In this document: positions 7,910 through 44,234 of the stretch, piece by piece
How positions within the stretch are numbered: position 1 is the stretch's first letter
Layout of the letters: every line of letters begins with the position of its first letter
Assembly (NCBI GenBank): GCA_947623205.1
Contig: CANQGM010000007.1
Location: 54,670-118,669 of the forward strand
Direction of reading: 5' to 3'
Length of the DNA stretch: 64,000 nucleotides
Origin: an uncultured Clostridia bacterium
GTDB taxonomy: Bacteria > Bacillota > Clostridia > Oscillospirales > Acutalibacteraceae
Notes under the pieces: model-generated
The model's input: only the letters and a program-made list of their open reading frames with translations
Databases searched by the model: none
What the model was told of the DNA's origin: nothing
Program-made: the position numbers and the translations under genes

Positions 7910-8383
7910 ATGGACAGTCGTCCAAAAAGAAGAAAAAACAAATATAACCCATATACTTTACATAAAGAGAACGGTAATTACTATATTTCTTTTTCAGATG
8001 TCAACGGCAGAAAGCAGACAGTTCAAGTGAATGAAACAATATTTACTCAGTTTGATAAATTTGAACGGGGCGACATATCTGAGATGAATGAATATGACAG
8101 ACATATTGAACACTTAACATTATCTGAGGATAGGCTTATTAAAAGAAATATTTCTTTGAACAAATCGCTTGAAGATTCCTTTGACATTTCTCAAGAGATA
8201 GAAATGCTGCATATGGCAATAAATGAACTGCCGGAGGTGCAAAAACGCAGATTTAAAAAATACTATTTTGATGAAATGTCGTTTAAAGAAATAGCTGCTG
8301 AAGAGGACTGTAATTATCAGTGTGTTCAAAGATCAGTGTATCGCGCAACAAAGAAAATAAAAAAATTTTTAAAAAGTTTATAA
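7910..8383 (+). CDS. RNA polymerase sigma-70-like / region-4 HTH protein of mobile-element type
   Basis: LPEVQKRRFKKYYFDEMSFKEIAAEEDCNYQCVQRSVYRATKKIKKFL. Confidence 0.8.
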   Translation: MDSRPKRRKNKYNPYTLHKENGNYYISFSDVNGRKQTVQVNETIFTQFDKFERGDISEMNEYDRHIEHLTLSEDRLIKRNISLNKSLEDSFDISQEIEMLHMAINELPEVQKRRFKKYYFDEMSFKEIAAEEDCNYQCVQRSVYRATKKIKKFLKSL

Positions 8384-8413: not shown

Positions 8414-8457
8414 GAAACAGGTGAAAGGGTTAATTCTCTTTCGCCTGTTTTCTTTTT
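8414..8457 (+). terminator. Rho-independent terminator
   Basis: gaaacaggtgaaag ... ctttcgcctgttttc then ttttt. Confidence 0.7.
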
Positions 8458-8471
8458 CAGAGAACAGGCGT

Positions 8472-8866
8472 TGCTCTTTGAAAATTAAATATCAGCACAT
8501 CAGGTACACTCCTTCTGCTGCCCAAACGGACAAGCCAAATGAGCGAACACCTTAACAGGTCTTTAGGATTCAGACATCGAAAGGCAAATTCAATGACGGC
8601 GATGACAGGCAGAAGGGATAATGATACTTCCGTCCAGTCAAAAGTCGAGCGTGATAAAACCGTCGCAACCAAAGAGGGCGGCTGTGGGAGATCCTCACGG
8701 TGGTGAAATTCCAATGAGGCTATAAATGCAATAGCCGTTTGATGTGTTCCTTGTCGCAGGGTATCGAGGATAAAAAGCGACAATCGGATAGTGTGAAATT
8801 CAGAGCTATCCAAAATGATTGGTATTACCCCGACAGCAGAAGATTTTTAATTTTCTGCTGTCGGGC
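8472..8866 (+). ncRNA. candidate structured noncoding RNA preceded by boxA-like sequence
   Basis: boxA-like tgctctttgaaaat at 8472; perfect stems ggctat/atagcc (8718/8731), tgtcgc/gcgaca (8752/8777), ggatag/ctatcc (8786/8806) and cccgacagcagaa/ttctgctgtcggg (8828/8853); no convincing protein. Confidence 0.5.
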
Positions 8867-8901
8867 AGTGAAAAATAAATTTTATGAAAGAGGTGTTTTA
8901 A

Positions 8902-9041: not shown

Positions 9042-9224
9042 TTGAACGAAAACTATATAAATGAAAATAACATTGATTCTGAACACAAAATAGAATCTGT
9101 TATAAATGACTGTAAGGTCACAATCTACTTTTCTAAAAACAGAAATAACCATGTTGAAAGAAATATTCTTGAAAATCTTTTGGATACATTTGAGAACAGA
9201 ATGAAAGCTCAGATTGGATGCTGA
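9042..9224 (+). CDS. small mobile-element-associated protein (TnpW-like)
   Basis: 60 aa ORF just upstream of a recombinase; position and SCKVTIYFS-type core. Confidence 0.4.
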   Translation: MNENYINENNIDSEHKIESVINDCKVTIYFSKNRNNHVERNILENLLDTFENRMKAQIGC

Positions 9225-19742: not shown

Positions 19743-21134
19743 ATGTCAAAAAGTGTGATCACCATACCGGCAACACTTAATAAGTACACAGCCGCGCCAA
19801 TTAACGTCAAAAAAAAGCGCAAGGTCGCCGCCTATGCCCGCGTCTCCACCGACCATGAGGATCAGCTGACCAGCTACGAGGCACAGGTCGATTATTACAC
19901 TAACTACATAAAGAAACGTGACGATTGGGAGTTTGTATCAGTATACGCAGATGAAGGAATCACCGGCTGCAACACAAAAAAGCGTGACGGATTTAAACGC
20001 ATGGTGGAGGACGCCCTTAATGGGAGAATTGACCTCATTATAACCAAGTCAGTCAGTCGTTTTGCAAGAAACACCGTAGATAGCCTGACTACAATTCGAA
20101 ATCTGAAAGAACACGGGATAGAATGCTATTTTGAGAAAGAGAATATTTGGACGTTTGACGGCAAGGGTGAGTTGCTTTTGACCATAATGTCCTCTTTGGC
20201 GCAAGAGGAAAGCCGCTCTATTTCCGAAAACTGCAAATGGGGTCAGAGAAAACGATTTGCAGACGGAAAAGTGACTGTTCCGTTTAAAAGGTTCCTCGGT
20301 TATGACCGAGGTGAGGACGGTAATCTTATTGTTAATGAAAAACAGGCTGAAATAGTTCGCAGAATTTATGGAATGTTCCTTCAGGGGCATACACCGTATT
20401 CAATTGCCAAACAACTTATTAACGAGGGCATCCCAACACCGGGCGGCAAGGAAAAATGGGGTACATCTGTAATTAAAAGTATTCTGACTAATGAGAAGTA
20501 CAAAGGTGACGCCCTTTTACAGAAGGTGTACACAGTTGATTTTCTTTCCAAAAAGAAAAAAATCAACAAGGGCGAGGTGCCGCAGTATTATGTTGAGGGC
20601 AATCACGAGGCAATAATAGACCCATCTGTGTTCGATATGGTTCAAAAACAGATAGCAGAGCGCAATTCAGAAAAAAACCGTGTTAGCTGTGTTAGTATTT
20701 TTTCCGGCAAAATAAAATGCGGTGATTGTGGAAGCTGGTACGGCCCAAAGGTGTGGCATTCCAACGACAAATATCGCAGGAAAGTCTGGCGGTGTAATCA
20801 TAAATTCGATGACAGTAAAAAATGTTCCACACCGCATTTAAACGAAGAAGCCATTAAGAGGCTTTTCGTAAAGGCTGTTAACATTCTTTTTACAGAAAAG
20901 AATGAAATAATTGCTAATTTCCGTGACATCAATGATATGCTGTTTTGCAACTCCGATTTTGAAATGGGTAAACGGAAAAATTTTGAGCAGTTTTTATCTG
21001 AATTAAATAAACAGGAGGGATTGCTCTCCGAATTTGATGAGGATCTTTGGTATAGCCTTGTGGAGTTTGTCACGGTTTTTAATAAGGAAAAAATTATATT
21101 TACTTTTAAGGACGGAACGGAAATAAGAGTATAA
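19743..21134 (+). CDS. large serine recombinase
   Basis: KVAAYARVSTDHEDQLTSYEAQ, ITKSVSRFARNTVDSL, zinc ribbon CGDCGSWYGPK. Confidence 0.95.
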   Translation: MSKSVITIPATLNKYTAAPINVKKKRKVAAYARVSTDHEDQLTSYEAQVDYYTNYIKKRDDWEFVSVYADEGITGCNTKKRDGFKRMVEDALNGRIDLIITKSVSRFARNTVDSLTTIRNLKEHGIECYFEKENIWTFDGKGELLLTIMSSLAQEESRSISENCKWGQRKRFADGKVTVPFKRFLGYDRGEDGNLIVNEKQAEIVRRIYGMFLQGHTPYSIAKQLINEGIPTPGGKEKWGTSVIKSILTNEKYKGDALLQKVYTVDFLSKKKKINKGEVPQYYVEGNHEAIIDPSVFDMVQKQIAERNSEKNRVSCVSIFSGKIKCGDCGSWYGPKVWHSNDKYRRKVWRCNHKFDDSKKCSTPHLNEEAIKRLFVKAVNILFTEKNEIIANFRDINDMLFCNSDFEMGKRKNFEQFLSELNKQEGLLSEFDEDLWYSLVEFVTVFNKEKIIFTFKDGTEIRV

Positions 21135-21546
21135 AACAATTAAAATTATGTTGAAAAATATTAGATTTAATAAAATATACATTTAATTAAAAAGATAAAA
21201 TAAGATCCTCTGAAATAGAAAGTATAAATTGATTTTCCATTTTATATGTAATAAAATAACGTTGATAACTTGTATTCATAATAAAAATTTGATAATATTA
21301 AGTAGCACGGGAATTTTAATAAAAAAATGAATTGTGAGATTATTTCCATTTTTATTTATGGGTATAGTTGTAATTACTGCTATTTTTATAGGTATTAACT
21401 ATTTTTATTTTATTTCTCAATTGACGATATCTTTTTAGCGTATATCCACCGCCGCGTCTAAAATTATAGATTACGGTGCATATGACATGGCAGCGATAAA
21501 TAAAAATATTAAAAGATTTAAAATAATATTCTGCACGTTAGAAGAA

Positions 21547-21590
21547 CCCTCACAGGTCAAAGACCACGGCTGTGAGGGATTTTTTGTGTT
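21547..21590 (+). terminator. Rho-independent terminator
   Basis: ccctcacag ... ctgtgaggg attttttgtgtttttt. Confidence 0.75.
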
Positions 21591-21675
21591 TTTTAAATCT
21601 GAACCCTCCTTTTGAGATAAAATCAAAAAGTTTAGAGAAAAATCAAAATGTATAGGAGATAATTAAATTGTATTA

Positions 21676-23225
21676 TATCCTGCGTTTACATAGATGAGGG
21701 AATCAGCGGAACAAGCACAAAGAAACGTACTTCATTTAATAAAATGATTGATGATGCAAAGAAAAAAAAGTTTGATTTGATAATTACGAAAGAAATTTCA
21801 AGATTTGCCCGAAACACTCTTGACAGCATAGGATATACCCGAGAGCTTAAATTAATGGGTATTGGTGTAATTTTTATGAATGATAATATAAATACCCTTG
21901 ACCCAGATTCAGAACTGCGACTGACGATTATGTCATCAATAGCACAGGAGGAGAGCAGAAAAACTTCTGAACGTGTAAAGTGGGGACAGCGCAGAATGAT
22001 GGAACAGGGAGTTGTGTTCGGCAGAGATATGCTCGGCTATGATGTAAGAGGCGGTAAGTTGTATATAAATGAAAAGGGTGCAGAAACAGTCAGGCTTATC
22101 TATCACAAGTTTCTTAATGAAGGAAAAGGCACTCACGTTATCGCAAAGGAACTTTATGAAGCAGGGATAAAAACCTCAACTTACATGAATGACTGGTCAT
22201 ATACAGTCATTCTCAGAATACTTAAAAATGAAAAATACTGTGGCGATTTGATTCAGCAAAAAACCTATACGCCCGATTATCTATCACACAGCAAAAAGTA
22301 CAACAAGGGGGAGGTTGAGTTTGTCACGATTCGTAATCATCATGAGCCTATTATTTCAAGAGAAATCTTTGAGGCAACTCAACGTGAGCTTAAACGTAGA
22401 AAAAACCTGCACGGAGCAAAAAACGGTTTTGCAAACAGATATGCTTTGTCTGGCAAAATAATTTGCGGCGTGTGTGGCTCAAGCTTTATTCATCGCACAA
22501 AAATATCTAAAAATGGTAATAAAAACGAATGTTGGGTATGTGTTCAAAGTCATAAGTACGGCAGGGAACACATTAACAAGAACAACGAAAAAGTTGGTTG
22601 CTCCAATGGCTCGATCAAAGAAAAGGATATTCGTTCAATTTTACAACAAATTATTTCAAGTGCACTTACAGACCAAAACGGAATTACAGACAGTGTTATT
22701 GCAACAGTTTCGGAGACGATGAATTTCAAAAGTAACAAGAACAATAATACTTATTTTGAGAATGAAATCAAAAAGGTTGAAAATAAAATGCAAAGGCTTC
22801 TTGATTTGTACCTGTCTGAAGATATTGGAGCTTCAGATTACCGCAAAACATATGATCGCTTAAAATCAGAACATAAAAATTTACTTCAAAATCTTCAAAA
22901 AGAAAAGGTCCACGGCACAATACCCGAGGACAATGAAAAAATACTTTATGATATTAAAAACTATGTAGACTTAATTATAACAGGTAAAAATTGGGACGAA
23001 ACGTTCTATCGAAATATTGTAAAAAAAATTATAATAAATAGAAATCGTGAAATTGATATTTATTTAAATTTAATACCCTATAAATTTACTTCAAAAATTC
23101 TCTGCGGTAAATCTGAAATAAATAAATATATAAGAAATAACGAAATAGTTTCCAACCAAGTTACCTCAGAGCCTATATCGGTAAGTGTACCTTTAAGTTC
23201 GGGCAGCGGCATAGTAAAACGCTGA
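21676..23225 (+). pseudogene. large serine recombinase lacking its N-terminal catalytic region
   Basis: In-frame SCVYIDEGISGTSTKKRTSFNK precedes the ATG at 21744; no RVSxxxQ catalytic serine segment; C-terminal zinc ribbon and coiled coil present. Confidence 0.75.
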
Positions 23226-43796: not shown

Positions 43797-44234
43797 ATGA
43801 GTAATGATAATAATGGCAATGTTAAACTTACGCGCAGCGAGGCAAGAGAGCAGGCTTTTATGCTTTTGTTTTCAGAGTTATTTGATAATGAGCCTCTTGA
43901 AGCAACAATTGAGGATAAATCCCAGATGTTTAAGGGCGGCATCTGCGGTTATGCCCAAGCGGTTGTAAGCGGAATTGAAGATAAAAAAGATGAAATAGAC
44001 GCGGAAATAAAAAAGAATTTAAAAGAGGGCTGGTCGCTTTCAAGAATTTCAAAGCCTTCCTTTGCAATTTTGCGCCTGGCAATTTATGAGATAAAATATG
44101 TTGACAGTGTGCCGCAGAGCGTATCAATTAATGAGGCGGTAGAGCTTGCTAAAAAATATACTATTGATGAAAGCAGGTTTGTGAACGGAATACTGGGTTC
44201 TTATGCCCGCGAAAATTCCGGAGGAGAAAAATGA
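43797..44234 (+). CDS. nusB: transcription antitermination factor NusB
   Basis: SEAREQAFMLLFSELF..AILRLAIYEIKYVDSVPQSVSINEAVELAKKY. Confidence 0.97.
   Translation: MSNDNNGNVKLTRSEAREQAFMLLFSELFDNEPLEATIEDKSQMFKGGICGYAQAVVSGIEDKKDEIDAEIKKNLKEGWSLSRISKPSFAILRLAIYEIKYVDSVPQSVSINEAVELAKKYTIDESRFVNGILGSYARENSGGEK

Follow-up and report, generated by a model that had tools for sequence, protein, structure and literature searches.

The window analysed here, a 64,000-nucleotide stretch of a genome from an uncultured Clostridia bacterium, very probably encodes a processive antitermination leader of the canT type, with a core belonging to Rfam family RF02913 (pemK RNA). The core lies at positions 8618-8717 and scored 62.2 bits against a gathering cut-off of 34.8 (Rfam 15). 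It is preceded by a boxA element, enclosed by long-range helices and followed by element genes in the same orientation. All features described below lie on the forward strand unless a minus strand is given.

The pemK core and the folded domain around it

RF02913 is the one Rfam match within the region, and its model was matched over the whole length, starting with the signature AUAAUGAUACUUC (8618-8630); the segment AUAAUGAUAC occupies 8618-8627. The preliminary description of this DNA, made from the sequence alone, could name no Rfam family and proposed an Rfam scan as a check; the scan returned this gathering-level match. Models of the large RNAs ROOL, GOLLD, OLE and HEARO had no match in the window, and the Rfam scan recognised no other large RNA family there. 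The pemK motif was reportedly described in a 2017 paper, and RF02913 is an orphan family with Cis-reg as its only type label.

Among the 300 genomes of the host's family, 82 have RF02913 above the cut-off, with at least nine copies in the richest genome; the genome studied here has one copy, and all 14 control genomes have none. The taxa among the matches listed in a genome-wide pattern scan include Clostridia, Tissierellia-type genera, Erysipelothrix, Streptococcus, Enterococcus, Listeria and lactobacilli. A few viral contigs also carry the pemK RNA. The earlier impression that similar sequence recurs in mobile elements of Clostridia was correct, and it extends to Bacilli.

The RF02913 model, with about 61 positions, accounts for just the central part of a larger RNA, as boxA, the helices P1, P2 and P5 and a 3′ domain all fall outside it. 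The 8472-8880 segment folds at a lower energy than shuffled sequences (z = -3.56, with 0 of 100 shuffles as low). When all 95 diverse loci were aligned globally with MAFFT, their varying internal lengths kept RNAalifold from finding a structure, and splitting the loci by core type cured this. This yielded one alignment of 36 long-core loci and another of 37 short-core loci, in which four helices lying beyond the Rfam core have two-sided changes in nearly every pair. The covariation scores of these helices were 0.53 versus 0.21, and 0.63 versus 0.23, relative to shuffled or slid controls, in alignments that were made by MAFFT on sequence rather than fitted to structure and from which the structure itself was read.

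P1 (8495-8505 with 8737-8747), whose 5′ strand follows closely on boxA, encloses the whole domain. Among about 43,000 stacks in the 36-locus alignment it is the best covarying, with two-sided changes in 10 of 11 pairs. The second-best distinct stack is P2 (8511-8519 with 8608-8616), with 91.6% of cells paired and two-sided changes in nine of nine pairs. Covariation also identifies the hairpin P5 (GGCUAU/AUAGCC, 8718-8723/8731-8736). Under a phylogeny-aware null, 15 column pairs from the two alignments together reached E<0.05; every one fits a helix, and P2 and P5 are represented among them. P1 pairs individually fell short of E<0.05 in this strict test, which we count against our preferred explanation. 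P1 and P2 are fully paired in the window copy. Thus the covariation in homologues that the preliminary description had proposed to look for is present, and its strongest signals come from the two long-range helices closing the domain, which that description had missed along with the RF02913 match. A protein-coding reading was rejected, in keeping with the earlier view that the region holds no convincing protein: the 55-aa ORF at 8539-8706 overlaps the covarying P2 and the core, and its translation is without support.

The 3′ domain begins with the hairpin P6 (UUGUCGC/GCGACAA, 8751-8757/8777-8783), which encloses a conserved GGGUAUCGAGGAUAAA element. With up to two mismatches, TCGAGGACAAATA occurs in 53 of 122 loci, compared with 0.4% in shuffles. 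The next hairpin, P7 (GGAUAG/CUAUCC, 8786-8791/8806-8811), is kept in the nearest relative, locus L222, and was not seen in the other aligned loci. It is followed at 8812-8865 by a conserved AAAACGATTGATA-like element (24 of 122 loci, versus 1.4% in shuffles) and a hairpin of variable sequence. In the window this hairpin is a 13-bp stem, CCCGACAGCAGAA/TTCTGCTGTCGGG (8829-8841/8853-8865), placed after the element and lacking a U-tract. L222 has a different sequence at this site, where pairing by eye again allows a hairpin, also with no U-tract. The stem sits where related loci bear terminator-like hairpins above chance: between the RNA and the first gene these occur at 31%, against 8% in the null (-11 kcal/mol, all loci). 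The stems listed earlier from the sequence (ggctat/atagcc, tgtcgc/gcgaca, ggatag/ctatcc and the 13-bp stem) are all present.

The boxA element and its upstream region

The boxA-like element TGCTCTTTGAAAATTAAATA (8472-8491) is the single match to TGCTCTTTGAAAATTRAATA at up to two mismatches in the whole 1.74 Mb genome. To assess its conservation we used loci selected by the pemK core alone, never by boxA. A boxA-like motif lies 115-290 nt 5′ of the core in 140 of 154 loci, and in 169 of 188 loci of a wider set, where chance would give 3.5% (Markov null) or 1.3% (reverse strand). Moreover, the two nucleotides that adjoin the searched motif on its 5′ side, G and C, are kept at 97% and 91%, giving TGNWCYTTGAMAAYTGAATA. 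As these positions lie outside the searched motif and are fixed as in rrn boxA, we count them in favour of an rrn-type element.

Searches for the host's own rrn boxA found no 16S or 23S matches in its metagenome-assembled genome, so complete genomes of the same family were used. In these five genomes, a CACCTTGAAAATTAAACAACG-like boxA is present in the leaders of all 13 rrn operons examined, and a TGTACMTTGAAAACTGAAYAAAG-like boxA in all five of the spacers examined. Based on this agreement, the motif at 8472-8491 is by sequence a genuine rrn-type boxA, as the preliminary description had supposed. Most hits of the exact boxA 18-mer in 14 named genomes were pemK RNAs, and none was rRNA. The boxA is degraded or unrecognised in Tn1549 and in about 10% of the loci, which counts against the preferred explanation.

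The consensus is identical to that of the leader and spacer boxA of host-family rrn operons, where antitermination depends on Nus factors. The rrn boxA leads into rRNA, whereas that of the window leads into a conserved folded RNA and protein-coding genes. Because the element is identical in sequence to rrn boxA and nusB is present in the genome, we infer that it works through recruitment of NusB and S10. There are two NusB-domain matches in the genome, at G000:C7:98508-98879 (about 43839-44210 of the window) and G000:C14:12076-12447. The latter falls within a 448-aa frame, possibly that of an RNA methyltransferase carrying a NusB domain.

Just 5′ of boxA is a terminator-like hairpin (8416-8458), with arms AACAGGTGAAAG/CTTTCGCCTGTT at 8416-8427/8438-8449 followed by TTCTTTTTC, in agreement with the terminator proposed earlier for the end of the sigma-like gene. 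Part of its 3′ arm, CGCCTGTT (8442-8449), can alternatively pair with AACAGGCG (8463-8470), directly before boxA, and the two pairings are mutually exclusive. The hairpin and its alternative partner (8416-8470) are a possible switch, and the alternative pairing was not seen in the nearest relative. No enrichment of promoter signals was detected upstream of boxA (25%, versus 31% in the null). Both the hairpin in this position and the lack of promoter enrichment are counted against the preferred explanation.

Relationship to canT of Tn916

In Tn916, canT is a 452-nt segment between orf8 and xis that acts in cis, in one orientation, as a processive antiterminator (Wirachman and Grossman, 2024; PMC11658703). 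It is required for transcription of the conjugation genes past terminator T1 in the Tn916 circle, overcomes foreign terminators inserted 3′ of it, needs no other Tn916 genes for this, and does not act in trans (PMC11658703). The main text of that paper mentions neither Rfam, pemK, boxA nor NusB.

As a stand-in for Tn916 we used the Tn916-type element on pCF10, whose order of orf8, orf5, xis and int and 83-codon orf5 match the published description (PMC11658703). Its canT region (orf8-xis) matches RF02913 at 55.0 bits and carries TTGTTCTTTGAAAACTGAATA, P1 (AATCGAA/TTCGATT) and P2 (CGATAAGAA/TTCTTATCG). Judged by these sequences, canT and the window RNA are members of the same RNA family, RF02913. 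Among other elements, Tn1549 scored 57.8 bits, and an element of C. difficile just reached the cut-off with 34.8 bits; the plasmid records with Tn1545-like integrases (L267, L268 and L271) had no RF02913 match. Another Rfam family, the SQ2397 cis-regulator, adjoins the regulatory region of Tn916 (L273:1374-1603), and a weak match to it, below its cut-off, adjoins that of Tn1549 (L269:2123-2276).

The inactivating mutation canT(S3) changes ATA to TGC at a tyrosine codon of the antisense orf5 (PMC11658703). The orf5 of pCF10 has just two tyrosines, in WEYHYHDK, and both lie antisense to AUAAUGAUAC, with which the RF02913 model opens. From the text of the paper and the orf5 translation we therefore deduce that S3 falls in the AUAAUGAUAC signature of the pemK core. 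The segment that this deduction marks as functionally required in canT is present in the window.

The window RNA shares with canT its orientation and its position between sigma/HTH and recombination genes, as well as boxA, P1, P2, the RF02913 core and the AUAAUGAUAC signature, deduced to be S3-sensitive in canT. The two differ in that Tn916 has xis and a tyrosine integrase, whereas the window element has a serine recombinase pseudogene. In addition, the window RNA has an added 3′ domain (P6, P7, AAAACGATTGATA and the variable hairpin), and P6 and TCGAGGACAAATA, absent from the Tn916 copy, may do something else, a point against the preferred explanation.

RNA-based processive antitermination is also a feature of conAn of pLS20, EAR of the eps operon and put of HK022, which act at the start of long operons; conAn requires the ConAn1 protein. 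We considered conAn as a relative and rejected it: its region contains neither an RF02913 match nor the core, and a search allowing two mismatches found no boxA-like motif there. On these features it is a different RNA from that in the window. EAR had no Rfam match in the window.

Genomic setting and proposed function

The gene 5′ of the RNA (7910-8383) encodes a sigma-70 region 4-like protein (Pfam Sigma70_r4_2, E=7.8e-10) and occupies the position of orf7/orf8 in Tn916. Among 40 loci examined, sigma-like proteins precede the RNA in most of those where a right-sized gene was found. On the 3′ side of the RNA are a small ORF (9042-9224), with no Pfam match and a 77% identical relative in L222, and a serine recombinase pseudogene with Resolvase and Recombinase domains (9316-10743). 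Comparison with the intact L222 copy revealed in-frame TAA codons at 9805 and 10243 and an in-frame deletion of about 45 amino acids. Given this damage, the element is probably no longer mobile by itself, and the RNA copy may be a remnant.

In related loci, the RNA usually lies close upstream of co-directional element genes. The first large gene downstream (n=85) encodes a serine recombinase in 49 cases, a tyrosine integrase in 17, ParA in 11 and ParB in four. PemK/MazF accounts for 13 of 54 small ORFs between the RNA and the large gene; HTH_17, Tn916-type Xis, TnpW and others also occur there. We interpret the RNA as a 5′ leader of about 280-380 nt of recombination, maintenance or transfer operons, not a long free-standing RNA.

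Processive, cis-acting antitermination is known for Tn916 only (PMC11658703), and we infer antitermination for the window copy. Given the homology with canT, the folded RNA itself is most likely the antiterminator. In the proposed mechanism, boxA and the folded RNA would be transcribed as the leading part of the element's recombination operon, and the RNA would remain with the elongation complex and make it resistant to downstream terminators. Expression of the integrated element would be limited by terminators. Polymerase that has passed the leader could transcribe the whole recombinase gene and, where the element is an excised circle, continue over the joined ends into distal genes.

Some features could instead indicate a riboswitch or attenuator, that is, a cis-regulator that senses a ligand or protein and controls the first gene downstream, with boxA only preventing premature termination of the leader. 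The Rfam type of RF02913 is Cis-reg, the GGUGAAAUUCC-type loop is reminiscent of FMN and cobalamin riboswitches, and terminator-like hairpins are enriched between the RNA and the first gene. However, the downstream genes are functionally unrelated, and the homologue canT needs no other Tn916 genes to overcome foreign terminators (PMC11658703), and we consider such a regulator improbable. The reading of the preliminary description amounts to a structured non-coding RNA that acts in trans and in whose synthesis boxA serves antitermination. Of this, the boxA, by its sequence, and the conserved structured RNA stand, and boxA does precede a structured RNA as it does in rrn operons; what did not hold is the free-standing product, as the RNA is the leader of operons and is itself the likelier antiterminator. 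The usual placement close upstream of co-directional element genes and the inactivity of canT in trans (PMC11658703) argue against action in trans, which we regard as very improbable.

The window copy could also be a decayed remnant that no longer functions, left in a dead element. The two stops and the deletion in the recombinase pseudogene and the single copy in the genome point this way, whereas an RF02913 score well over the cut-off, an intact boxA and fully paired P1 and P2 do not; we consider decay unlikely, though far from negligible. A canT-type antitermination leader remains our preferred reading.

Our literature search, which did not reach subscription papers, found no paper linking pemK and canT. 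It appears to be new that orphan RF02913 and canT are the same class, that a host-type boxA stands in front of it, and that its conserved structure far exceeds the Rfam model. We give about even chances to a broader proposal, in which RF02913 and canT form one large class of mobile-element RNA across Bacillota that co-opts the host rRNA antitermination machinery (boxA, NusB and S10), the structured RNA making polymerase resist intrinsic terminators and read the element operon processively in the excised circle. The link between RF02913 and canT gives an orphan RNA family a function that rests on experiment. It also places canT in a family, supplies it with a comparative structure and points to boxA/NusB, unreported in the main text of its paper (PMC11658703), as a candidate host partner. 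The link predicts that processive antitermination is used by the many Bacillota mobile elements with this pemK/canT RNA.

Further along the window, a strong extended -10 promoter-like site (10755-10783; TTGAAT-17-TATAAT, with TG before the -10) precedes a Bro-N domain gene at 10813. A tyrosine integrase lies nearby (11722-12699, minus strand), and two more serine recombinase-like genes, judged from translation, are located at 19743-23225. The presence of these further recombinases close by suggests that mobile elements have accumulated between the cys genes and tRNA-Thr.
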